In this document: positions 9,576 through 52,403 of the stretch, one piece after another
Layout of the letters: the number at the start of each line of letters is the position of its first letter
Position numbering within the stretch: the stretch's first letter is position 1
Origin: Terfezia claveryi
Lineage: Eukaryota; Ascomycota; Pezizomycetes; Pezizales; Pezizaceae
Assembly (NCBI GenBank): GCA_015179025.1
Contig: WHUX01000105.1
Span: forward strand, 1-64,000
DNA length: 64,000 nucleotides
Direction of reading: 5' to 3'
Program-made: the position numbers and the translations under genes
The notes under the pieces: generated by a model
What the model saw: only the letters and a program-made list of their open reading frames with translations
The model's database searches: none
Told to the model about the DNA's origin: nothing

Positions 9576-10160
9576 TGTTATGGACGGAGGTTGGAAGGTA
9601 ATTCCCGCGTCGACTCGGTAAACAATGACTTATTCTGGTTCGGGGTATCACCTGCGATCGCAGGTGATGGATGCGAGTGTCGAGGTATCGCACACGTATG
9701 GAGCTCTACGTGTGTGATCAGGTGTCTAGGGACTTCGGGCGAAACCAAAGTCGAGCGAGGTATTGAGGTCAAGGTCGAGAAGGCGAGGTAGTCTGAGCTA
9801 CAGACAAGAACAGTAGTGCAGATATATTCGTATAACAACTAGGTACAGGAAGGTAGACAAGTTGTTGCGTGGAGAGGAAAGAAACAGAACACAGACGGCA
9901 AGGACAGGCTTCTTTTATAGAGATCCTATCTCTATCTCAAACAACACCCTTTTGGCTAACACAATAGTCTAGACAAATTATATCATCAGCATAACGGAAG
10001 AAGGACACGCAAGCCAGCTCATGGATACATGGATCCTGTGAGATCGTGGAGAGCGAGGCGTCTGGCAATAATGGATAACAAGTATGCAAACCGACTAACA
10101 AAAGATGAACGTGCAAGCCAGCTCATGGATACACGGATCCTGTGAGATCGTCAAGAATGA
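9576..10160 (-). repeat. Truncated 3' LTR of Gypsy-2
   Basis: Matches 19836-20420 closely up to GATCGTCRAGAAYG and then stops abruptly at the G-rich edge of the PLE. It contains the shared palindrome at 9648-9667 and an internal duplication of a roughly 45-bp motif (GCAAGCCAGCTCATGGATAC) near 10008 and 10112. Confidence 0.9.
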
Positions 10161-10694
10161 GGGGGAGGAAGAAAATTGTTAGAATTCCTGAAGAGTATCA
10201 CGAAGCAGACAACTTGACTTGTGGGTCACTGTTGGTTTCGTCTGGATTGACTCTTCAGTGCTTGATACTTATACCTTTTCCTACCTCTAATGTGACTCAC
10301 AGTAATTGTGATTATTTCCGTGGTGTGGGTGGGCTGACCACCCTCTTCTAAAAATCTAAATTAAAAGTGTGACTCGTTCATGCATAATGGAGTGACTCAT
10401 TAAACATGATTGCGTCATGCCGTCAGCAATACTAATTTGGGGGCGGTGTACTAATCTTACCTGCATGCATGACGCATGTGCGATGGGTGTGACTCCGACG
10501 TGCATGTGCATGCATGATGACTGCATTGCGCTAATGCAGGGTAAGCGCTAGTAATATACCCTTGCTAGCGGCTATGTTTCAGTGTGGCACACTAAAAACA
10601 TAACTGAATTCACCCAGAGTAAGCCGCAACGAGAGCGGTTACCCGGAGGGGCGAGCGAAGCGAGTAGCGGAAGTGGAGGGGAACGGAGGGTGAA
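10161..10694 (-). repeat. PLE pseudo-LTR copy A (downstream of the gene)
   Basis: Starts at a G-run (GGGGGAGGAAG) and matches copy B until the latter folds back at 14351, and copy C for its full length and into the loop. It contains hammerhead copy A and repeated TGACTC motifs. Confidence 0.9.
10195..10268 (-). ncRNA. Hammerhead ribozyme-like motif, copy A
   Basis: Read on the minus strand, the full core is present: CTGAAGA, a 3-bp stem II with a six-base loop, then GAAA. Stem I (10 bp with a 3-nt bulge) and stem III pair as in copy B. Predicted cleavage follows the GTC at 10208. The 74 bp are identical to copy B. Cleavage here would form the 3' end of the PLE RNA. Confidence 0.85.
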
Positions 10695-10811
10695 GCCTTC
10701 ATTTTCCCATTTCCTGGGTATTAGCGTATAGCCCAAACTAGTATTCTGACTCACTTATCCTGAAGTGGGAACTTACAGGTTATGTTTTTAGAACACGCTA
10801 CCATATTATTT

Positions 10812-13800
10812 TTACAGATGTAGACTTTCGAATAAGTCTCCGAGGGTGGTATCATCTGGAAATGTTTCAAGAAATTTAGCATTGAATCTTTGGCACAAGT
10901 CGCCGAAGTTAATAGTTTTTTTACGACTAATAATCAATGTTGCTTCGAGAAGTTTAGGAGGGATTTGGCTTCCCTGCCAGACTTCTTGAATTCCTTGTTG
11001 TACATTTCGTACATCTATAAAATCCCATATTGGATTAAGAACGGATTTAACTACCATGATGTTATCCACTCCCGCTGGTTTGACCATATGGTACCGGTTT
11101 TCCCATCTTGTATTGTAGTTACGGATAATCCATTCTTTGACCAAAACAAGTAGGTACTCTCGGCTGAGGTAAATAGAGGCAAGTTCCTCAACCGATTGCT
11201 TGTATATGTCTGCATTAGACGACAAGGCAGCGAGCCGACTCATCTCTCTGAGGAAAGTTCCTTTTTTCATCCATTTTGGATGCCCCGAAGAGAATGGGAT
11301 TCGTTCGAAATGGTATAGTGGTTTCCTGTATGGTCTGAAGTCGAACTTCCCTGTAGACGGGGTGTGCATAACTTCTAGATCCAAAAATATCATACGATAT
11401 TTATCCACTTCCCATTTGAGCTTAAGACCTGGGAATTTCAGGCGCTCTTTGGCATATTCCAGTGCTAAACTTTCGTTTGGCGCAAGGATTATAGTAAAAA
11501 TGTCATCGATATACCTTTTGTACAGAAGTACTTGAGGGTCTTTGATCATATGTTGTTCATATTTAGCCGCGTATAGATTAGCAATATGTGGAGAGCTTGT
11601 GACTCCCATTGCTAATCCATCCGTTTGCAAGAACAAATTACTACCATACCGAAAAACAAGGTAGTTGTTCACAATTGAACAGAGTTCTCGGGCAAGTTTG
11701 CCTTTGATCTCTCCGTGATGTTTAGAAGCCGCAGCTTCGACCACATCGTGGATGGCAGTAAGCGGGACATTCGGGTAGAATGCTTCTACATCCGCTGAAA
11801 GCATAAAAGCTTTCATACCAAATGGAACTTTAACCTTTAACAGTTCTTGGGCTAACGTTCTACTGTTAAGTAGAATCGTAGGTGATGTTTTGACTTCATC
11901 TTCCAAGAGGTTACATAACATGGACGCAGCAGTTTCACCCGTGAAACTGTGGCAAGGAATGATTGGTCTAAACTTGGTCGGTTTTTTATGGATTTTCGGG
12001 AGTCCACTAAAGCGTGGCAGCTTCCGAATATCTTCGTTCCAAGCTTTAGCCAGTAGGAAATTTTCCTCTTGTTCAGTCAGGGAATAGGTATCTGACTGAA
12101 CAATCTGGTCCAAGTGTGTTTGCAAGTTTTTCATAACTTCGTGACACTTATCAACGTTGATCTTGGTTATCGATCTATCATTGGATAAGTAGTCATTGCA
12201 TTGCATAATATACCATGTTCGGGATACTACAGCAGTACCAAGATTCTTGTACGTACTTGTTATGAACAAGTCGTGTTTTTTCAAGTACTCCAGCAGTTTT
12301 GCTGCATCTTTCATCCCTTGGTGATTGATGCCGGTTGTTTTAGGTGCTTCTTCGATCATTCGACATAATCGAGAACGTCCCTCGGCCAATCCTGCTTCGA
12401 CAGGTACTGACGCTTTAGGAGCTGATACTGGTATATCGGAACCTAAAGAGTAGCGGTGGTCATATGCTTTATTGTCTTTACCATTAAAATGACATTTCCA
12501 TCTAATGGTATTGCAAAAATATTCGTAATCACGTAAGACAATGGAAGAATTTATTTCAGTACTAAACATAAAATGGAAACCCTTGCTAATGGAATTCGCC
12601 ACGTCATGTGGCAATTCCACTCCTTCCAACAGATGTACTCCTCGCCGAAATCTAAGCGAGTCCAACAATGCCAGTGGCATACGCTGACGAATTTCCATCA
12701 CTGCTTGGTTGAAAGGGATGTTTAGTAAACGGTCTGGATAAGACGATGGGTTGGACCAGGTCCACATACCTTCTGAGTCTTTTTCTGACTCTTTGTCTTC
12801 TTCACTTTCGTCGCTGAAGTGGCGGCGTTGGATTCGGCTCGCTTCCTCTTCTTCCCGTTTGAAGTTTTTGAGGAGGTGTTTTTCGTTAGCTTTGCTGGCG
12901 TTTTGCCCTTTCCGTTGCCTTTTCTCTTCGAATCTATAATCGACACAATTTGAGTTAGATAATGATCTCTTTAGCCCTTTCAGAGGGATCGTACCTTTCT
13001 CTTTTCGAAGAGCATCTTGGACGGCTGTGTGAACTGTGTCAGCCAGACTATCTTGGGTGATAGCTGGACCCTGTTGGGGGTCTTTCGCAGCGTCCTTCAA
13101 CTTCATTTTATTCAGAGCTGTTTCCAGCTCTGCTATTGCCTTGCTTCCGGCAATATCTACTACTCGAGTAGCATAAGTGAAGATGTCTTGAGAAAGCAGG
13201 CCTTTTTCGTTGGCAAGAAATGATGTATTCTTGCCAGTGGAGGTAGTTGTATCCGTCGCGTTATGAAGGGCTACCAGTTCTTCATAACGTTGATCAATAA
13301 TATTGACCACGGTTTTTTGGATCGCGGGACGACGTAGTCTAGTATGGAGGAATGTCACTTCCTGTTCCCTTGCTGTAATAGCTTGGGAGAGCATTTCCAT
13401 ACGGAAGGCCAACACCTTCGATTCGACTCCTGCTAGGAATACCTTCGCAGTAGAGGTTTGATCAAGTAGATCATTCCCGTCATCTAAGTCTATTCCCTCA
13501 CGGGAGTCCTCTAAATATTCCTTAGAAAATTGAATTTTTGGAATATGGATGCCCTGGATTTCAGAGGGCCAGGTCCCTCGTGATTTGTGCTCCTCCAACT
13601 TTCTCAAAGTGGCTCGAGACCTGTAATAGGTCTAAGCCAGTTTGTAGTGTTGGACCAAAAAGAAACGGAGACATTCGCGATAGCTCGTCGGAATGAGGTC
13701 AATGACCTCATTCAACGACGTCGTGAGCGCAGAGTGGGTTGCTCGTTGGACAGATTGGTTCATCTGAACGTAGGAGGAGGAGGTGACGGCGAAGGCGGAC

Positions 13801-13835
13801 GGGGATGGGGAGCGGATGGCACGAAGGGAGGACAT
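10812..13835 (-). CDS. Penelope-like reverse transcriptase, one in-frame TAG
   Basis: Reverse transcriptase that would copy the element RNA. The ATG at 13835 gives 1007 codons, with a single TAG at 13632-13634 where CAG is likely. The 931 codons after it are open. The N-terminal 400 residues are charged, with basic and acidic stretches near 300-350. The PLE-type signature follows: NLGTAVV, LPKIHKKPTKFRPI, an AFYPNVP segment, GLAMG, catalytic YIDDIF near residue 775, FLDLEV, and then the SSGHPKWMKKG block typical of PLEs. No GIY-YIG motif is visible at either end. Cellular rvt genes have related domains, but the flanking repeats argue for a mobile element. Confidence 0.88.
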
Positions 13836-13894
13836 TGTTGTTTTCGTGGGTATGTATGGGTCGTTTGTGCAAAAAGAATTCGTCTTTGAAAGTC

Positions 13895-14351
13895 GGGGGG
13901 GAGGAAGAAAATTGTTAGAATTCCTGAAGAGTATCACGAAGCAGACAACTTGACTTGTGGGTCACTGTTGGTTTCGTCTGGATTGACTCTTCAGTGCTTG
14001 ATACTTATACCTTTTCCTACCTCTAATGTGACTCATGGTAATTGTGATTATTTCCGTGGTGTGGGTGGGCTGACCACCCTCTTCTAAAAATCTAAATTAA
14101 AAGTGTGACTCGTTCATGCATAATGGTGTGACTCATTAAACATGATTGCGTCATGCAGTCAGCAATACTAATTTGGGGGCGGTGTGCTAATCTTACCTGC
14201 ATGCATGACGCATGTGCGACGGGTGTGACTCCGACGTGCATGTGCATGCATGATGACTACATTGCACTAATGCAGGGTAAGCGCTAGTAATATACCCTTG
14301 CTAGCGGCTATGTTTCAGTGTGGCACACTAAAAACATAACCGAATTCACCC
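13895..14351 (-). repeat. PLE pseudo-LTR copy B (upstream of the gene)
   Basis: Direct copy of A. Its G-run at 13895-13901 faces the gene. The start codon lies 108 nt downstream of the predicted hammerhead cut in this copy, so the cut would define a short 5' leader. Confidence 0.9.
13931..14004 (-). ncRNA. Hammerhead ribozyme-like motif, copy B (type I)
   Basis: Minus strand, 5' to 3': stem I strand GTATCAAGCA (14004-13995), core CTGAAGA (13994-13988), stem II GTC/GAC around AATCCA, core GAAA (13975-13972), stem III with loop, GTC ending at 13944, then stem I strand TGCTTCGTGATAC (13943-13931). Stem I pairs 5+5 bp around a CGU bulge. Stem III pairs at its base with one bulged C and again internally (UGAC/GUCA). 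The G10.1-C11.1 pair, A15.1-U16.1 pair and C17 are all present. Hammerheads of this type are known in PLE pseudo-LTRs. The long stem III is unlike the very short one usual there. Confidence 0.87.
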
Positions 14352-14423
14352 TCCGTTCCCCTCCACTTCCGCTACTCGCTTTGCTCACCCCTCTGGGTAA
14401 CCGCTCTCGTTGCGGCTCACTCT

Positions 14424-14880
14424 GGGTGAATTCGGTTATGTTTTTAGTGTGCCACACTGAAACATAGCCGCTAGCAAGGGTATATTACTAGCGCTTACCC
14501 TGCATTAGTGCAATGCAGTCATCATGCATGCACATGCACGTCGGAGTCACACCCGTCGCACATGCGTCATGCATGCAGGTAAGATTAGCACACTGCCCCC
14601 AAATTAGTATTGCTGACTGCATGACGCAATCATGTTTAATGAGTCACACCATTATGCATGAACGAGTCACACTTTTAATTTAGATTTTTAGAAGAGGGTG
14701 GTCAGCCCACCCATACCACGGAAATAATCACAATTACTATGAGTCACATTAGAGGTAGGAAAAGGTATAAGTATCAAGCACTGAAGAGTCAATCCAGATG
14801 AAACCAACAGTGACCCACAAGTCAAGTTGTCTGCTTCATGATACTCTTCAGGAATTCTAACAATTTTCTTCCTCCCCCCC
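14424..14880 (+). repeat. PLE pseudo-LTR copy C (inverted)
   Basis: Inverted copy of A/B abutting the Gypsy-2 chromodomain at a run of seven C (14874-14880). Its G-rich edge supplies the last codons (EEENC) of the interrupted Gypsy-2 frame. Confidence 0.9.
14772..14844 (+). ncRNA. Hammerhead ribozyme-like motif, copy C (inverted)
   Basis: Same motif on the plus strand: CTGAAGA at 14782-14788, GAAA at 14801-14804, GTC ending at 14831. Stem II closes GTC...GAT, so position 11.1 is U instead of C. That is a single C-to-T change that should weaken activity. Confidence 0.8.
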
Positions 14881-16803
14881 GAATTTTTTCACAATACTAG
14901 GCGCATTCAAAAACAAATCGGCAGGTTCCCAAGTAAGCTCGTCGTAGCCCACCCAACGGGCAAGATATTCTAGTGTGCGACCGCGGAAACGAGAGTCGAC
15001 GATTTCGTCCACTTCCCATTCGGGTTCATCCTCAATGATCACAGGTGGTAGGGGTGGTTGGATTTGACCTGGAAGGGGGTCCGTGGAGGCAGGTTCGAGG
15101 AGTGAAACATGAAAAACAGGATGGATCTTCATAGATGTGGGGAGGTCGAGTTTATAGGCATGGGAGGAGACCTTCTGGATTATCCGGAATTTTCCCAACT
15201 TCTTGAAGTCGAGTTTTGTCGATGGGCGAGTTGTTTTAACATGTCGACGAAGTAACCACACTTGATCCCCTATTTCGAACTTAGGGGCCGGAATCCAAGA
15301 TTTATTAGCTTGCTCAGAGTAGGTAGCCTGTGCCCAAATCATTTCTGATCGGAGATGGGCATCCAGCTCAGCAAGGCGGTCCGTGTATTCTTTGATCACA
15401 TGGGGGGCAGGTAACTTGGTGGTGGGGTTCGCGGTGATCTGGTATTTAGGATTTTCGCCATACATAGCCTGAAAGGGGGTGATACCTAGGGTTGAGGATA
15501 AGGTATTGTTGTAGGAAAACTCGGCCATGGTGAGTAATTCGGACCAGTTGTCTTGTTGATAATTACAATAAGCCCACAAGTATTGTTCTGCAATGGCATT
15601 GATTCGTTCCGTTTGTCCATCAGTCTGGGGGTGGAAGGCTGTTGAAACATTCTGTTGAATTCCAATAAGGGAAGTCAAGGAGCAAGTGAATTCGGATATG
15701 AATTGAGTGCCACGGTCTGAGATGATCGAATCGGGAATTTCGTGTAAGCGGAAGACATTATCAAAAAAAAGCTTAGCAATCTGCTTGGAATTGGCGTCCG
15801 TGTTGGTAGGTATATAGTGTGCCATTTTTGACAATCGGTCAACTACAACTAATAAGGCATCGAATCCATTTGAGATGGGAAGGCCCGTAACGAGGTCCAA
15901 GGAGACAAATGACCACTTCCGAAATAGAACTTGAAGTGGTTTTAACAATCGATAAGGGGCATGGCGAGCTGGTTTAATCCGGGCGCAGGTATCGCAATTT
16001 CGAAGGTATCGAGCTATGGTCTGGCGCATTTTTGGCCACCAGTATTCTCGTGATACTAGTTCATAGGTGGCTGCTTGACTAGGGTGTCCCGCAGCTGGGT
16101 GGTCATGGTAGGTACGGAGAATGCGGAGGTGTATTTCCGGAGAGTCAGGAACATAAACCAGACAATTAACGAGTATAAGTCCTTCCGAGAGTTGACAATC
16201 AGCCAAAGGGATTATCGGGTGTTTTCTGACATCGTTTTTGAGGGCGTGCTTAATCTCGAGGGCGAGCTTGTCAGTCTTGAGGGCGGCAAGAATGTCTTCG
16301 TTATTAGCGATTGAGGCTGCAGAAAGTGAAAATTTCTTTGAGGCTGCAGAAAGCGAAAATTTCTCGGCGGGTATTAGGGCCTGTGTTGGGCGAGCACGAC
16401 CATCCCCTTCCTCAGGGAGGTCTCCAGATCTCCTGGTGAGTGCATCAGCTTTGGTGTTCTGGGTGCCGGGTCTGAAGACGATCTTGAAGTTATATTGGGC
16501 TATTTCCTGCGCCCAACGAGCTTGTCGGCGTGAAAGCAAGGCTTTGGAGGTGAAACTCTGTAGGTTGTGATGGTCGGTGAGGATAGTGAACGGTCGTAGG
16601 AGCTGGTGTAAGTAGATGTGCCACTTTTCAAGAGCTAACATGATTGCTAGCAATTCCTTATCTCCAATACCATAATTGCATTCAGCGGGTGACATTTTTT
16701 CCGAAATAAATGCAACTGGGTGCAGAACAAATTTCCCATCTTTTGGGTGTTTCTGTGACAGGACTCCGGAGGTGACCAAATCTGAGGCATCTGTTTCGAC
16801 CAA
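14857..16803 (-). CDS. pol: Gypsy-2 pol, part 2: RNase H, integrase, chromodomain
   Basis: This is an open 648-codon stretch. RNase H comes first (VETDASD, then LTDHHNLQSF). An integrase with an HHCC finger (CDTCARIK) and a DDE core follow: VVDRLSKM, SDRGTQFISEF and the Glu in TDGQTERINAIAEQYL. A GPY/F-like region and a chromodomain (WEVDEIVDSRFRGRTLEYL) end it. Chromodomains direct such elements to heterochromatin. The frame ends EEENC, and those codons come from the PLE edge, so the natural C-terminus is lost. It is in frame with the protease-RT part upstream. Confidence 0.93.
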   Translation of the reverse strand: MVETDASDLVTSGVLSQKHPKDGKFVLHPVAFISEKMSPAECNYGIGDKELLAIMLALEKWHIYLHQLLRPFTILTDHHNLQSFTSKALLSRRQARWAQEIAQYNFKIVFRPGTQNTKADALTRRSGDLPEEGDGRARPTQALIPAEKFSLSAASKKFSLSAASIANNEDILAALKTDKLALEIKHALKNDVRKHPIIPLADCQLSEGLILVNCLVYVPDSPEIHLRILRTYHDHPAAGHPSQAATYELVSREYWWPKMRQTIARYLRNCDTCARIKPARHAPYRLLKPLQVLFRKWSFVSLDLVTGLPISNGFDALLVVVDRLSKMAHYIPTNTDANSKQIAKLFFDNVFRLHEIPDSIISDRGTQFISEFTCSLTSLIGIQQNVSTAFHPQTDGQTERINAIAEQYLWAYCNYQQDNWSELLTMAEFSYNNTLSSTLGITPFQAMYGENPKYQITANPTTKLPAPHVIKEYTDRLAELDAHLRSEMIWAQATYSEQANKSWIPAPKFEIGDQVWLLRRHVKTTRPSTKLDFKKLGKFRIIQKVSSHAYKLDLPTSMKIHPVFHVSLLEPASTDPLPGQIQPPLPPVIIEDEPEWEVDEIVDSRFRGRTLEYLARWVGYDELTWEPADLFLNAPSIVKKFGGEEENC

Positions 16804-18600
16804 GGTCTCGAGTTCGGGGTCAAAATGGCGGAGGATGGGTGCGGAGGAAAAAGTTTCCTTGAGAAGTTTAAAAACCTCTTCACATGAAGAATTCCAAACA
16901 AAAGGAACATCTTTTCAAAGCAAGTTAAAAAGAGGTTGGCAAAGAGCAGAATACTTATTGATAAACCTGCGGTAAAATTTGGCAAATCCAAGAAAACACT
17001 AGATATCCTTAACAGAATGAGGGGTCTCCCAATTAAGAACTACGTTAACCTTCTCGGGGTCCATTTCCAAGCCATCCTCAAAGATGATAAATCCCAAGAA
17101 TGAGGTTTTCTCAACTGAGAATTCGCATTTTTCTGGTTTTATAAATAACCTAGATTCCTTGAGTTTTTGGAGAACCTTTCGCACCTGTTCCTTATGTTCC
17201 TTTAGATTTCTTGAGTAAATCAAAATGTCGTCGATGTAGCATACACAAAAGATATCGAGGTATTTACAGAGGGTATCATTCATGAATCATTGAGCAGTAG
17301 CAGGGGCGTTAGGTAACCCAAAGGGCATAACTAGAAATTCAAAAAGTCCGTACCGAGTGTGGAAGGCAGTTTTCCACTCATCACCTTCTTTAATTCGGAT
17401 TTGGTTGAAGCATGCACGTAAATCGAGGCGTGTAAAGTATTTGCATCCTCGAATCTGGTTCAGGCTTTCTTCGATGCGAGGTAGCGGGTTTCTATCCTTA
17501 ATCGTGATATCATTTAGAGCATGGTAGTCGACACATAGACATAAGGAACCATCCTTTTTTTTGACGAATAGGACTGGAGAGGCTGCAGAAGAAGTGCTGG
17601 CTCGTATGAAGGACTTAGATAAATTCTCGTAGATCCATTTGCGTACTTCCTTGAGTTCTGAGTCAGATATAGAGTACATGTGGCCAAAAGGAGGTTTGGC
17701 TCCTTCTTGCAAAGGGATAGCATGGTCAACGTATTGATGTGGGGGTAATATTCGAGCTTCTTTTTCTGAAAAGAGAGCGAGGTAATCATGATATTCAGAG
17801 GGAACTAGTTTGGCGTCAGGTTCAACGGACTCGTCTTCGTCGTCAGAGGCATATATTGCTGCGATACAGAGGCGTGCATCCAGGTCCTTGATAGCAACCC
17901 GAAAAGCTGCTCTGGAAATAATTGATATCCGAAATGGGTTAGTCCCTAGAGGTGTTTTAGGTAATGGGTGGGTCGGTAGGTAATGAGCGTGGCAAAATCC
18001 GGAAGCGAATGCAATAGTATTAACTGACCAATCAATTGTTGGGTTGTGTCGCCTAAGCCATGTTTTCCCCACAATCAAATCCCATCCAGCCAACTTGGTA
18101 ACATGGAATATGAGGTTTTCTTGATGTTGGTCGATAGATAGTTTCAAGGTACAAGTGTGTGTGATTTTCCCGATAGGTGAGGGTTTCCCATCGGCAAGTA
18201 CAAGATCTTCCGGCTTGTTTTTCACGTCCAATGGCAAGTTCATGTTTATGGCATAGTCAATATCGATAAACTGGGAGCTAGCTCCCGAGTTTACTATGCA
18301 CGTAGCAGAAAGCTCTTCATTGACTATACAAGGCAAAGCAAGTGGGTCTTAGGACCCCAAATCATGATAATCAGTAGAAAGCACAGCAATTCTAGAAATT
18401 CGCAACGCATTCGCAAGGCGCCGTTGACGAGCTAGTTGTTGACAGGACTTACAGGAAGCCATAGGTAATACATAACCAGTACCTTCTAAGTGGACTTCCT
18501 TCAAAACAGAAAATGAATTAAACACATGGACAGGGTCATGGACAGGATTGATGGCGCCAGGTTGCATCCTGGCACTCTCTGATCGGCCATCATTGATCAA
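16804..18600 (-). pseudogene. pol: Gypsy-2 pol, part 1: protease and reverse transcriptase
   Basis: The frame is shared with the RNase H-integrase part. The protease has the NSGASSQFID active site near 18280 and a WDLIVGKTWL block. The reverse transcriptase shows FVKKKDGSLCLCVDY, FTRLDLRACFNQIRI, MPFGLPNAPATAQ and catalytic YIDDILIYS near 17235. Stops interrupt it at about 18349 (TAA, likely CAA), 17284 (TGA, likely TGG) and 16996 (TAG, likely CAG), and once more near 16915. All fit C-to-T on one strand or the other. The element was probably active recently on this showing. Confidence 0.92.
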
Positions 18601-22336: not shown

Positions 22337-23785
22337 GTGCAACAAGCATATGAGGAAGACCCCCTGGCTAAAGACATCATTGCCGCATTGGAATCTAGAC
22401 AACATCATCATACTAAGATTTCTCTAGCCAAATGCACCACCCAGGATGGCCTCCTATACCACCTAGACCGTCTCTATGTACTGGATAGCGAACTGCAGTT
22501 ATGGCTTATTAAAGAACACTATGACACCCTAGCCACTGGGCACCCTGGAGGGGCTAAGACGTTAGAGCTCTTGAATAGGCAATACACATGAATTAACTAA
22601 CGGAAGGACGTGGAAAGGTACTTGCGGAACTGCCATGTTTGCAAGCGTGCTAAGCCTACCCGTCATGCTCCTTATAGGACCCTGAAGCCCTTGGAGATCC
22701 CAGACCAACCTTGGCAACACCTAACCATGGACTTTGTGACTGGGTTGCCGGAGGATTCAGGGTTTAATGCTATCCTTATAGTAGTAGACCGATTGACCAA
22801 AATGAGGTATGTTATACCTTGCCATAATACCTGTTCGGCCCGGAACCTCGCCGGCCTCTACCTCAACTATATATTCCGCTACCATGGTCTCCCCAAGTCA
22901 GTCGTCTCGGACCGCGGCCCCCAATTCGTCTTGGACTTCTGAAAGGTATTTTGCGAGCTTCTGGGAATCAACATACATCTCTCCACGTTGTATCACCCCC
23001 AAACAGATGGTCAGTCCGAGCGAATGAATACAATCATAGAGCAGTACCTGAGAGCATACGTCAATTACCAGCAAAACAACTGGGTTTCGCTGCTGACAAC
23101 CTGTGAGTTCGCCACTAACAACCATTTCTTAGAGACTCTGAAAACCTCCCCATTTCTGGCCAATTATGGCTGGCACCCTCGTTTTGTAGACTCCCTAGCA
23201 CCCCTATACAAGGCTAGGGAGAACACCCCAGCTAAGGAGTTTACCACAGAGATTGCTGAGCTGCACTCCACCCTAAGAGCCGAACTGGTATATGCTCAAG
23301 CCAGGCAAGCAGAGTATGCCAACAGATCATGGTTGCCAGCCCCCAGGTATCAGCTAGGAGACAAGGTGTGGCTCTCCAGCAGGCACTTGCGAACGGAACG
23401 GCCATCTCGCAAACTCGACCATAAGTTCCTGGGTCCATTCGAGGTGGTGGCTACTATGGGCACTCATGCCTATCAATTGAGGTTCCCCAAGGACATCAAA
23501 CGCCACCCGGTTGAACACATATCAGAAATTGAGCTAGCGGCTGACGATCCCCTCCCAGGGCAGAAACACCCCCCTCCCCCTCCTGTGGTGATCAAGAGTG
23601 AAGAGGAGTGGGAGGTCGAAGAGGTATTGGACTCAAGGAAGAGGTATGGTCATCTGCAATACAAGGTCAAGTGGTTAGGGGACAAGGAAACTACCTGGCA
23701 ACCTGGGGAAGACTTGGAAAATACACAGGACTTGGTCACTCTGTTCTACCAACGATACCTGAGGAAGCCTCACCCAGTTGAATGA
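22337..23785 (+). pseudogene. pol: Gypsy-1 pol, part 3: integrase and chromodomain
   Basis: A zinc-binding HHCC region (HYDTLATGH with CHVCKRAK) is followed by the DDE core: DFVTGLP, SDRGPQFVLDF and TDGQSERMNTIIEQYL. The GPY/F region (KLDHKFLGPFEVV) and chromodomain (WEVEEVLDSRKRYGHLQYKV) come next. The frame ends at 23785. Stops at 22589 and 22940 interrupt an otherwise single frame. The gag-pol order and chromodomain place it among fungal chromoviruses. Confidence 0.93.
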
Positions 23786-31379: not shown

Positions 31380-32700
31380 ATTACCACCACTAAGAAAAAT
31401 TAATCACTCTATCAAACCAAAAGCAGGAGCTACTTGGATACCAAAATGGCGACCCTCAGGACATCGATTTAGACAACAAATCCATGACAAATTAGTCGAA
31501 GAAGAAGCATCAGGTCGCATATATAGAGTAGAAAATGACACAAATGCTGTAGTCATGTTCACTATCCCTAAACGAGATAAACCGGAAGAAGCCAGACATG
31601 TCAATGACTGTCGAGACCGCAATTTAGCCGTCGAATCGGACCACACCCCATTACTAGATATCAATGAAGCTATTGAACTAGTAGCGGAGAATCCCATTTG
31701 GACTAAGGTCGACTTAGCTGACGGATTTTTTAATATCAGGAACGATGAAGAATCTGAGCAACACTCTACCTTTTTATGTCACATGGGATATTTCAGAAGT
31801 AGAGTTATGCAACAAGGGGATCGTAACGCACCTGCTACCATGGTTCGCGTTATGCATGAAATATTTAAGGACATGGTCTATAAAAATTTAATCATCTATA
31901 TCGATGATATTATTATATTCTCTAAAACGTATGAAGAACATGTAGAATTATTGAAGAAAGTACTTCAACGTCTACAGGATGAGAAATTCTATCTCAAAGA
32001 AAGCAAATGCCAGTTCTTTACTCCAAGATTGGAAATCTTAGGACACGTTTTGACATCAGATGGATTACATGTAGACCCGAAGAAGAGGACTACTATATTA
32101 ACATTTCCAACTCCTACAAGAAAAAAGGATCTTAGAGGATTCCTTAGAATCGTTAATTATCTCAGCAGATTTATTCCTGACTTGGCATCGTATGCAAGCA
32201 CCCTGTCAGAACTGCAAGGAGAAACAAAGAAATGGGAATGGACAGATACTCATAACGCAGCGTTTGAAAAACTCAAGGAACTCGTGAATTCCCCGCATGT
32301 TTTAAAACCCTGGAATAATGAATCTACTGAACCCAAATATTTAGTCTGTGATGCTAGTGATGTAGGACTAGGATCCTGGATAGGTCAAGGACCGTTGACG
32401 TATATCAGACCATCATGCTTCCACTCTAGAAAATTTAATCCAGCACAACTCAATTATCCTACCTTTCAAAAGGAATTATTAGCGATTATTGACTCATTGA
32501 AATTTTTTGAAGCACAATTGAGAGGTCACAAGTTCACTATCCTTACCGACCACAAACCGTTAGTAACCTTCCATACTCAAACGCCTGCAAGTTAAAAATT
32601 GAGGCGATCGCAAGATTACCTAATGGAATTTGATACAGACATACAGCATACCGCAGGAAAGGAAAATTTGATAGCAGATGCTCTATCAAGAAAGCATAAA
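31380..32700 (+). pseudogene. pol: Gypsy-3 reverse transcriptase and RNase H
   Basis: 346 codons are open from 31555 to 32595. Motifs are FTIPKRDKPEEARHVNDCR, WTKVDLADGFFNI, QQGDRNAPATM, catalytic YIDDIIIFSK near 31905, LGHVLTSDGLHVD and the FLRIVNYLSRFI connection. RNase H follows (VCDASDVGLG, LTDHKPLVTF). A TAA at 32593 and a return to the same frame (HTAGKENLIADALSRK) show a single stop before the end of RNase H. The upstream 170 bp continue the RT N-terminus in another frame. Confidence 0.92.
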
Positions 32701-37835: not shown

Positions 37836-40140
37836 CATGGTATTTGCTAGTGCCTGTATTTTTTAGATGGCTAGGGCATGGTTAAGGTTCCGAATGGTTA
37901 GGTAGTCATTGGCCAGTTCCTCTCAAAGGAGAAGAATCTCATCTTTAGCATCCTTCAGTTTTTGTTCAGTCTTTTAGAGGTTTGCTCCTTATTCTTTGCT
38001 AATAGCATAGGTGGCTGTCAATATGTCGATGGCTCAGGTTTATTAGTATTCTATTAGTTGGGCTGGATTGGAGGGGATTGAAGTCTCCCTTCAAGTCTAA
38101 AATCTAGTAGTAGGTAAAGGAGCTAATAGAAGTAAGAGTGCTAATATGAGTATTATACTAGTTAGTCTATAAGGATCCAATGTAGTGTGACAGCAGTTCA
38201 AGGAACTAGTAACCAAAAGGTGCATTTTGAGGGTACAAAATATAGTAAGGGCTCAAAGGTAGCAAGGCTGCAGAGGTGGGGACAGATAGATAGGAACAAA
38301 CTAATAGAGGTATACTCTAGAGAGCAAGGCTGGGCGCATTCAAGAGGATAAAGCTAGACACACTTGAGGGAATAAGGCTTAGGAGGATCTATATATTATA
38401 TTAAACAAGATATTGGATAAGAATCTAACTAGATAGTGAGGGTAGTAAGCTATATATATAAAAGCTAAGGCTAATAGACTTCCTGATAATAATTAGAGAT
38501 AATAAGGGCAAGGAAAATGCTAGACAATGACAACCTAAAGGCCACCCAAAGGCTATAATTATTATCAGCTCCTATATATTAAATATTATCTTTCAATACT
38601 CTACTACTCTCAGTTTAAGAGGAAGATTTAGTGAGTGGTTGAAATAATTAAGACAATGCTTAAATGAGCTATGCAGAAGGTAGTTAAAGTTAAATAGATA
38701 GTTGATAATAGAGGTAGAGATAATAATATAATAGGCATTAGAATAGCTATTAATATAGAGGTGATTATGAAGATTAAAAATGATGAACTATAATAATAGG
38801 TAGAGATAGTGAATAAAATATATAATATAATAAAGGTTAAGAAGGCATACTAGGCTCTACTACTTTAGTCAGTATTATAGACCTATTGTAGTACTCTTTA
38901 TATTATTACTAGAATGTCTCTAATGATACTTATATTAGGTATAGAGCTGTATATAACTATCAACCTTACTATAGTTCCACTTCTTCAGACTGATAAAAAC
39001 TATAGGACTTTAATTACTAAATGTCTCCAATACCTATATAATATAATTCTAGGCCTTTGAGAGGTTAAAAAGTGAAGAATCTTAATATGTATATCTAGTT
39101 TCAATAGGATAATAAGGTATAGAAGTGGGAATCTAAATACAATATAAAAAGATTTATATTAGTATTTATCCCTCATTAGACAGGCCTTTTCATTATCTAT
39201 ATAGTCTGTAATAAGAATATCTATAAGTTATACATAGATCTATTAATCACAGAAAAAAAAGTTAGATATCTCAAGAATCCTATAAATAGATATTGGCTTA
39301 AGCTATATATTAAAGAAAAATTAGTTACTTAATTGTATAATATTGATAGAGGTATTATGAGTATTTATATTAATTTATATATTTTGTTTTCTTTCTTACA
39401 GCTAGATATAGGATAGATTAGCAAAGTAGGATTACTAGGTTTTCTTTATTAGCAGTTTAGCTAGTTCAAATAATATTTGTTAGTTGGGTAGTTCTATTTG
39501 TTATTGGTTGTTTTTTTTATTTTTGAAGCTATCTCTACCTTTTTTTAGAGAGGATATATAGTCTTATCTCTATAATTTTATAAGGTCATATACTAGCTAG
39601 CTTAGTAATAGGTTCTATAGTTGCTATTATATAGGTAGTAGAATATATACACTTCTACTATATTATAGAGTCTGCTACTATATTCTCTAAATAGTTTAGT
39701 GCAATTTTTGTGATTTGGGAAATAACTAAGACTACTGCATAATATTGCAACTAGCAGGACAAATTGGAGAAGGAACTATTGGGCTTAAAGCCTTTAAACT
39801 AGATTTTTAATACTTATATATAAGGTTAGTATACTTTTGGTGTTCAATTAAGACTTTATTAAGAGTCTGTATATAATAAGTGGTCTTTGACATAGCAGGT
39901 AATAACTGTAGGTACTCAAGCAATATATCCTAAGCTGCTATTAATGTTTGACTTTAATCTACTAGTAGTATAGCCTCTATCTAGATCTCAGACTTCCAAA
40001 TGCATATTAAGTCAGATTGATAGAACCTTTTGGGCTGCATGTCTGGAATTTTATGTTAGGTTTATATCATCTTAGTAGGGTTATAGTAGGAGATCCTAAT
40101 CACTGAGACATGGTTTTTGGTCAAATAGCACTTGACAACA
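37836..40140. other. AT-rich, heavily mutated relic DNA
   Basis: Very rich in TA, TATA and TAG, with stops in all frames. Short phrases such as NPINRYWLKLYIKEKLV around 39270 hint at an old retroelement, but no domain can be assigned. The TpA excess and loss of C are what heavy RIP produces. No gene was seen. Confidence 0.6.
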
Positions 40141-50047: not shown

Positions 50048-50670
50048 AATCCAACGGAACTGCAGAAAGGTATAACCGGACAATTCAGACAATGGTAAGA
50101 GGCATGCTCACTCATATATCCGATAAGAGACTATGGGCAGAAGCATGCGCAACTGCTGTTTATCTGAGGAACCGCCTACCTCATACCTATTTGCAGGGCA
50201 AAACACCCTATGAAGCCCTCTATAAGGCAAAGCCTTCAATAAGACACTTGCAACCCTTTGGACAGCAATGCTTCGCTCACATCTACGAGGAAAACAGACC
50301 TAGTGGCACCAAGCTTTTCCCAAGGGCAGAAAGTGCTATATTTATTGTCTATACGGACAGTACCTCCATATATAGAATACAGCTTCAAAATAAGCGTATA
50401 AAGACTATTAGAGCTACTCTTTGCTTCTTCTCACCCTCGAGCTTACCCCCGAGCTTACAAGCGAGCTCACCAGCGAGCTTACCAGCAACCTTACCCCCGG
50501 CCTCGAGCTTGCCAGCTAGCTTGCCAGCGACCTTACCCCCGGCCTCGAGCCCAGCGAGCTCGAGCTTGCCAGCTAGCTTGACCCGGCCTCGAGCCCAGCG
50601 AGCTCGAGCTTGCCAGCTAGCTTGCCAGCGACCTTACCCCCGGCCTCGAGCTTACCCCCGAGCTTGCTAG
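50043..50670 (+). pseudogene. pol: Copia integrase C-terminal fragment and repeat-encoded tail
   Basis: HESNGTAERYNRTIQTMVRG contains the catalytic Glu. AEACATAVYLRNRLPH and KTPYEALYKAKPSIRHL follow. From about 50440 the frame runs into a GC-rich tandem repeat coding Pro/Ser/Ala/Leu in every phase. Confidence 0.9.
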
Positions 50671-50740
50671 CGACCTTACCTCCAGCCTCGAGCCCAGCAA
50701 GCACGAGCTTGCCAGCAAGCTTACGCCCGGCCTCCAGGTC
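50440..50740. repeat. GC-rich tandem repeat inside Copia pol
   Basis: Units around GAGCTTGCCAGCTAGCTTG and CAGCGACCTTACCCCCGGCC alternate ten or more times. All three forward frames stay open through much of it, and the flanking integrase and RT frames differ. Repeat growth has therefore changed phase. Confidence 0.85.
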
Positions 50741-52403
50741 GAGCTATAATCTAAGACCCAGAAAGAAGGCAAAGATAGCTGTTATAGCTCAGGCTGAGAC
50801 TCCAAAGACGTCCAATCCCACCGAGCTTCCAAAGGCAATCCAATATGACCTAGCTTTACTTGCCGTTAATATTACCAAGGAGCCCAAAACATACCTCCAA
50901 GCAACAACGGGGCCTGAAGCCCCCAAATGGTTTACAGCAATGCAGGCGGAACTACAAGCATTGGCCGACCAAAACGTCTGGGATGTTGTTCCAATACCTT
51001 CAAACCGCAATATTGTTGGCTCCAAGTGGGTATACAAGATAAAAAGGGATGCAGCTGGCAATTTCAGTCGTTATAAGGGAAGGCTGGTAGCGCAAGGCTT
51101 TTCTCAACAGCCTGGCACGGATTTCGATGAGGTTTTCGCTCCAGTCGTCAGATATGACTCACTGCGCTTGCTTATTGCTCTCTCCATATCCTCAAACTGG
51201 CCTCGGCCAGACCAGCTTGATATCAAAGGTGCATTTTTATACGGCTACCTCAATGTAGAAGTATACATACGTCTACCTCCAGGTCAAGATAAACCTGGAG
51301 AATGCGCTCGTTTAAAGAGATCTATATATGGACGTAAGCAAAGTCTAAGAGCTTGGTATGGAAGGTTGACCGGCTTTCTTATACCACTTGGCTACAAAGC
51401 AACGAATTTCGACCCTTGTGTCTTAATTCATTCTACTCACAACATCATTGTCGCAATATATGTTGATGATATCTCTATATTTGGTGCCAGTCCACTTAGA
51501 CATGAACTAAAAACATCACTTAAGACAGAATTTGATCTCAGTGATATGGGTTCTCTAAATTGGTTACTTGGTATTCAAATAGAATGGCAGGAGAATTCGG
51601 TTTCCTTATCACAACAAGCATATATAGACCAATTACTGGTGAAATTCGGAATGGATACATGCAACCCAGTTGTTCTTCCCCTTAAACCTCATCATAATCT
51701 GATAAAGGCTAAGGAAGGAGACAACTTTGCTGATATCTCCCTATACCAGCAGATTATAGGCTCTCTTATGTACCTTGTCATAGGAACTAGACCTGGGCTA
51801 GCATTTACGGTCTCGGCCCTTTCCCAGTTCGCATCCAAACCAACAACAAATCATATGGGGGCACTTAAGCAAGTGCTGCGATACCTAAAAGGCACATACA
51901 ACCTCAAGCTTCTATACCGAACACACACACAAACAGCTATTCATTTAGCTGGCTACTCGGATGCTGATTATGCAGGTGACCGATCCGACCGAAAATCAAC
52001 CACGGGCTACATATATCAATTAGCAACAAACACTATTTGCTGGCGAGCTATTAAACAACGATGTACAGCTACTTCTACAGTCGAAGCTGAATATGTCGCT
52101 CTGTCAACAACCGCTAAGCACCATGTGTGGCTACAGCTTGCCTTGAATGAGCTCAGAATAACAATACCAGCTGCCCTAAGCACTGACAACAATGGCACTA
52201 TCGATCTGACCTCCAATCCTCGAATCAGCGATAAAAGCAAATACATCGACGTGGCATATCATCATGTACGAGATCTAGTAGAGACTGGGAAGATCACTGT
52301 TCTCTACATTTCAAGCCACGACAACTTAGCAGATTTATACACTAAACCAATGCCACACCCACGACTCTCTATATTAAGGGATATCGTGCTAGGCAACACA
52401 TAA
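50610..52403 (+). CDS. pol: Copia reverse transcriptase and RNase H, open
   Basis: 597 open codons. After the repeat and a basic linker (SSYNLRPRKKAKI), reverse transcriptase begins: WVYKIKRDAAGNFSRYKGRL, QLDIKGAFLYGYL and catalytic IYVDDISIFG near 51460. The FDLSDMGSLNWLLGIQI and GSLMYLVIGTRPGLAF blocks follow. RNase H (GYSDADYAGDRSDRKSTTGY, then STVEAEYVAL, and Lys-Tyr-Ile-Asp near the end) closes the frame. No stop interrupts it, so this Copia copy is younger or less mutated than the gypsy elements. Confidence 0.94.
   Translation: MPASLPATLPPASSLPPSLLATLPPASSPASTSLPASLRPASRSSYNLRPRKKAKIAVIAQAETPKTSNPTELPKAIQYDLALLAVNITKEPKTYLQATTGPEAPKWFTAMQAELQALADQNVWDVVPIPSNRNIVGSKWVYKIKRDAAGNFSRYKGRLVAQGFSQQPGTDFDEVFAPVVRYDSLRLLIALSISSNWPRPDQLDIKGAFLYGYLNVEVYIRLPPGQDKPGECARLKRSIYGRKQSLRAWYGRLTGFLIPLGYKATNFDPCVLIHSTHNIIVAIYVDDISIFGASPLRHELKTSLKTEFDLSDMGSLNWLLGIQIEWQENSVSLSQQAYIDQLLVKFGMDTCNPVVLPLKPHHNLIKAKEGDNFADISLYQQIIGSLMYLVIGTRPGLAFTVSALSQFASKPTTNHMGALKQVLRYLKGTYNLKLLYRTHTQTAIHLAGYSDADYAGDRSDRKSTTGYIYQLATNTICWRAIKQRCTATSTVEAEYVALSTTAKHHVWLQLALNELRITIPAALSTDNNGTIDLTSNPRISDKSKYIDVAYHHVRDLVETGKITVLYISSHDNLADLYTKPMPHPRLSILRDIVLGNT

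Follow-up and report, generated by a model that had tools for sequence, protein, structure and literature searches.

Hammerhead ribozymes are a recurrent feature of Penelope-like elements (PLEs). According to one review, hammerhead motifs were found in all PLE sequences then available (PMC6155905), and two reviews describe the PLE ribozymes as mostly minimal forms that lack helix III (PMC6155905, PMC7761336). Here we describe a PLE insertion at positions 10161-14886 of a 64,000-nucleotide stretch of DNA from the fungus Terfezia claveryi (contig WHUX01000105.1, positions 1 to 64,000 of the forward strand), which is hereafter called the window. No endonuclease domain was detected in this Penelope-like retrotransposon of a fungal genome. 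The element probably carries a type I hammerhead ribozyme, whose cleavage is predicted from sequence, near the 3' end of each pseudo-long terminal repeat (pseudo-LTR). Hammerheads in PLE repeats have already been published and this element adds another case; a hairpin set against the ribozyme core is the one unusual point of its motif. A literature search, which covered titles and the openings of abstracts, found no publication devoted to fungal PLE hammerheads.

Several described systems can be compared with this locus. Poseidon of Anolis carolinensis (PAc) is also a PLE with a hammerhead at the junction of repeat and frame. This hammerhead cuts only when the protein of the element is added, and competent folding appears to need help (PMC11167929). 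PAc differs in having a GIY-YIG endonuclease and in being cut 26 bp inside its frame, whereas the cut predicted here precedes the start codon and no endonuclease was found. Endonuclease-deficient PLEs and Terminons resemble the T. claveryi element in that no endonuclease is found and in that a hammerhead near the 3' end of the repeat is followed by a C-rich end (PMC6431247). They differ from it in their telomeric repeat arrays, none of which were seen here by eye in the 40-nt flanks of 16 places. Pen2a_Av of Adineta vaga has a similar layout, with a frame between two direct pseudo-LTRs and an inverted pseudo-LTR placed head to head; it also has an endonuclease and a 9-bp target-site duplication (PMC3846280), neither of which was found in the T. 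claveryi element.

Anatomy of the element and its motifs

The insertion consists of repeat A, a minus-strand frame, repeat B and an inverted repeat C. Its features are as follows.

10161-10694, minus strand: direct pseudo-LTR A, downstream of the frame (repeat search)
10195-10268, minus strand: copy A of the hammerhead-like motif, with the same 74 nt as copy B; predicted cut 10208/10207
10812-13835, minus strand: frame of the element, reverse transcriptase; begins with the ATG at 13835, is broken by a premature stop in codon 68 and is then open to 10812
13889-14351, minus strand: direct pseudo-LTR B, upstream of the frame (repeat search, genome copies)
13931-14004, minus strand: hammerhead-like motif copy B; predicted cut 13944/13943; weak match to RAGATH-1 at 13999-13939
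14345-14886, plus strand: inverted pseudo-LTR C, lying head to head with B (arms at 14345-14878 and 14424-14886 in the repeat search)
14771-14844, plus strand: copy C of the hammerhead-like motif, in antisense relative to the gene; predicted cut 14831/14832; found by descriptor, no Rfam hammerhead match

Telomerase is the nearest match to the predicted fold of the reverse transcriptase, and a telomerase-like reverse transcriptase is characteristic of PLEs. So are direct pseudo-LTRs, often accompanied by an inverted one, and the insertion has two direct copies and one inverted copy. No GIY-YIG endonuclease domain was matched in Pfam at E <= 0.1, nor at E <= 10 when the whole frame was searched with X at the stop, which separates the element from canonical endonuclease-bearing Penelope elements. 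Target-site duplications were checked in 10 spans and measured 0-4 bp in nine of them; the tenth (C229), with 7 bp, covers two elements. Relatives of the frame include a protein of the ascomycete Rosellinia necatrix, with 39% identity over 99% of the queried region, and it is the sole one named among 48.

All three motifs contain the invariant hammerhead core CUGANGA / GAAA / UH with three pairable helices around it, and the 12 invariant core letters are intact in each. In the direct repeats, the core CUGAAGA is followed by a 3-bp stem II (GUC, loop AAUCCA, GAC) and then by GAAA. The bulged stem III is built from CAAC, UGAC, the loop CCACAA, GUCA and GUUG (4+4 bp), after which UC stands before the predicted cut. 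Stem I can form between GUAUC-AAGCA and UGCUU-CGU-GAUAC (5+5 bp). The topology is type I, because stem I is open and stems II and III are closed. Copy C has a G-U instead of a G-C pair in stem II next to the core. Every motif sits near the 3' end of its pseudo-LTR, and copies A and B lie 3736 nt apart, both in the sense of the gene.

A preliminary description of this DNA had proposed three such motifs in the pseudo-LTRs of a PLE, with a full core and pairable stems I, II and III in each copy. The repeat search, a motif descriptor and the telomerase-like fold bear this out. It had placed copies A and B exact to the base (10268-10195 and 14004-13931) and had rightly called them identical and in gene sense, while its start for copy C (14772) falls one base short of 14771. 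It had also put the cuts correctly after GUC, at 13944/13943 and 10208/10207, and from these it had derived a 3736-nt RNA that begins 108 nt before the ATG and holds the whole frame. The spacing and the distance from the first predicted cut down to the ATG at 13835 stand. The whole frame does not, because an in-frame stop at codon 68 (13634-13632) interrupts the window copy and RNA released from it would be broken in the same way. In an alignment of 16 other copies that begins at the frame start, 10 are free of stops over the codon-68 stretch and six have frameshifts and/or stops of their own.

The statement in that description that hammerheads are known in PLEs agrees with the reviews cited above. 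The T. claveryi motif shares with the PLE hammerheads of those reviews a hammerhead core in pseudo-LTRs and a type I topology. It departs from their minimal forms in having a stem III that is present, long and bulged, and the description had called this stem unusual for the group. Monomer-stable variants were reportedly described from fungi and protists by Cervera and De la Pena in 2014, and a long bulged stem III may not be unusual for fungi.

Recurrence of the motif in the window and the genome

A descriptor consisting of CUGANGA, a stem II of at least 3 bp, GAAA, UH and a stem I of at least 5 bp matched only copies A, B and C in the window. Dinucleotide-shuffled windows gave any match in 25 of 1000 cases, and in 4 of 1000 when a stem III of at least 3 bp was required. 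For shuffled pseudo-LTRs the corresponding figures were 13 and 5 in 100,000. The thresholds were chosen with knowledge of the motif and the shuffle figures therefore flatter it.

The genome was searched over 72.6 Mb in 794 contigs. Among the best-scoring candidates, the repeat was found in at least 48 places on 15 contigs. A set of 42 copies with at least 93% identity that span the motif was used for comparison; three diverged places were left out of it, as were three that do not span the motif (two of these are the halves of a single interrupted copy). All 12 core letters are kept in 40 of the 42 copies; the two exceptions lie on C724 and C549. Among the 45 spanning copies, 17 match copy B at every one of the 74 nt. 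Genome-wide there are 32 occurrences of the exact core pattern, all of them in listed pseudo-LTR places, and none in the control. A wider core pattern (CTGANGAG, 4-30 nt, CGAAAC) gave no sign of a second family that has it: 66 genome matches were obtained against 52 in the reversed control, with 36 in pseudo-LTR places of the present family and 30 elsewhere. Viral contigs and the genomes of bacteria and archaea were searched for related loci, and none was confirmed.

Eight insertions that have all three repeats were compared. In the C398 insertion, each pair of the three repeats differs once in about 460 nt, and by this measure C398 is a recent insertion, at least one in the family. The only core change found in two copies is at N7, a free position in hammerheads; the insertions on C78 and C167 both have it in their inverted repeats. 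It was probably a single event because the B repeats of these insertions are identical. The same two insertions (C78:89712-94432 and C167:45421-50145) share one flank and differ in the other, which together with their B repeats suggests duplication or recombination. The diverged copies C34:132485-136958 and C4:135609-137864 are decayed and rich in C-to-T and G-to-A changes, a pattern that recalls repeat-induced point mutation; resemblance in the C4 copy stops at the start of the motif. Both were excluded from the evidence.

The window itself is a nest of transposons. It contains Ty3-type frames (RNase H, integrase, chromodomain) and a Copia-type RVT_2 frame, with transposon frames at 14857-16803, 17287-18336, 22988-23785, 31555-32595 and 50610-52403. 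Of these, the 14857-16803 frame has the PLE at its end. Podosphaera aphanis, another ascomycete, supplies the first named relative of the Copia frame; taken with the R. necatrix relative of the PLE frame, it makes an ascomycete host likely. Directly beside the 3' end of the element there is a direct repeat of 97 nt, with two copies 104 nt apart (9962-10162). A markedly AT-rich step is seen at 38001-40000 (G+C 0.298 vs 0.37-0.55 in the other 2-kb steps).

Ribozyme, hairpin and other readings of the repeat

A ribozyme at each repeat would act as follows. Transcription would run through both direct repeats, the transcript would be cut after each GUC, and the two cuts would release a 3736-nt unit with its 108-nt leader. 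Once complete, the RNA is predicted to fold preferentially into a hairpin that locks the core, so cutting would take place during RNA synthesis or with the help of the protein of the element. Such early or assisted cutting would fit PAc, which is cut only with its protein. The observations behind this pathway are the anatomy, the full-core motif, its placement in sense before and after the frame, and the survival of the core in nearly all well-preserved copies.

The hairpin is formed by two arms.

13986-13994, minus strand: first arm CUGAAGAGU, comprising the hammerhead core and the first letters of stem II
13924-13932, minus strand: second arm ACUCUUCAG, overlapping the end of stem I

The second arm, nine letters just downstream, is the exact complement of the first, which holds the core. 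The preliminary description makes no mention of this hairpin. When both arms are included, the minimum-energy fold is a hairpin of 26 pairs at -22.4 kcal/mol, and 6 of 200 shuffles fold equally well.

Several results weigh against a working hammerhead. The predicted minimum-energy fold is the hairpin and not the hammerhead, and it is ahead of the hammerhead state by about 8 kcal/mol. The predicted share of hammerhead falls from 1.8% at 74 nt to 0.06% at 86 nt and to roughly one in a million at 89-93 nt; these figures were computed without tertiary contacts, which favour hammerheads. The Rfam covariance-model check that the preliminary description had named in advance went against it, with no match in the whole window at the Rfam cut-offs. 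No hammerhead match was obtained at E <= 10 over 5.1 kb, and genome-wide searches at the same limit found none for RF00163 (73 of 8782 candidates scored) or RF00008 (68 of 10195 candidates scored). When 86 bases around copy B were compared with 4227 Rfam families, the sole match at E <= 10 was the RAGATH-1 hammerhead (RF03152), on the right strand and with core, stem II and GUC in register. This is weak support for the motif. At 13.3 bits (E 3.9) it is the best score of any motif copy, and with a cut-off of 56.3 bits none of the copies reaches the Rfam score for a hammerhead or becomes a RAGATH-1 member by the rule of Rfam. About four chance matches to some family are expected at this E-value, and the in-register hammerhead match is suggestive and no more. 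Copy C in the same test matched a microRNA family and no hammerhead. A test for stronger conservation of the motif than of the remaining repeat came out negative, as the motif is no less variable (21 of 74 vs 102 of 344 sites). The 42 copies gave no covariation support for the hammerhead, because they are too alike and the diverged ones have decayed, and variation within the family does not prove that the motif functions. In PAc, ribozyme-dead RNA still inserts in vitro and no RNA-seq reads end at the cut site (PMC11167929).

Could the long CUGAAGAGU/ACUCUUCAG hairpin at the repeat end, with its extension, be the working structure, serving in recognition or as a stop, with the hammerhead core as a non-cutting relict or by-product? 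The folding energies given above speak for this, yet we regard it as rather unlikely. Hairpin pairs are broken in 12 of the 42 copies vs hammerhead pairs in 9, and covariation supports neither structure. A C-to-T and G-to-A pair in copy C was considered as hairpin covariation and rejected, since both changes occur together in only 1 of the 42 copies and each is found alone in others; both are also present in two decayed C34 copies. Of 2000 shuffled repeats, 192 contain an inverted repeat of 9 bp within 80 nt, which means that the hairpin, too, may be accidental; the hairpin also leaves the placement of GAAA and GUC unexplained. Minimal animal PLE hammerheads have been proposed to act in trans or as dimers of two motifs, and a ribozyme restricted to such action is very improbable here. 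Dimer cutting is thought to apply to PLE hammerheads without helix III according to two reviews (PMC7761336, PMC6466107), and the element does offer several repeats per transcript; its stem III can, however, form alone (4 bp + 4 bp) and a dimer is not required. That the motif is a chance resemblance is scarcely credible. The descriptor was fitted after the motif had been seen, 25 of 1000 shuffled windows contain some match when stem III is not required, and Rfam gave no match at cut-off, but matches with stem III are few in shuffled windows and shuffled repeats alike and the motif lies in a repeat of an element class with known hammerhead motifs.

A cutting ribozyme remains the reading that we consider probable. 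One fragment of the family, C223:441722-442285, extends from 12 nt upstream of the motif to a point about 384 nt inside the frame. If it was made by reverse transcription, its template was uncut at the ribozyme. The internal end of the fragment is reminiscent of internal initiation in PAc. The fragment is a single case and may be a DNA remnant.

A possible switch of a PLE ribozyme

One review calls the role of PLE hammerheads a mystery (PMC7761336). It is conceivable, if unlikely, that the 9-bp complement of the core is a built-in off-switch, which would allow cutting only before the second arm is transcribed or when the protein of the element opens the hairpin. If this were true, cutting would be tied to protein supply and transcripts would be divided between messenger and processed template. 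With its full three-helix motif, a competing hairpin of simple form and at least one insertion of recent date (C398), the element family is a compact system for testing what switches PLE ribozymes, folding or the protein of the element.

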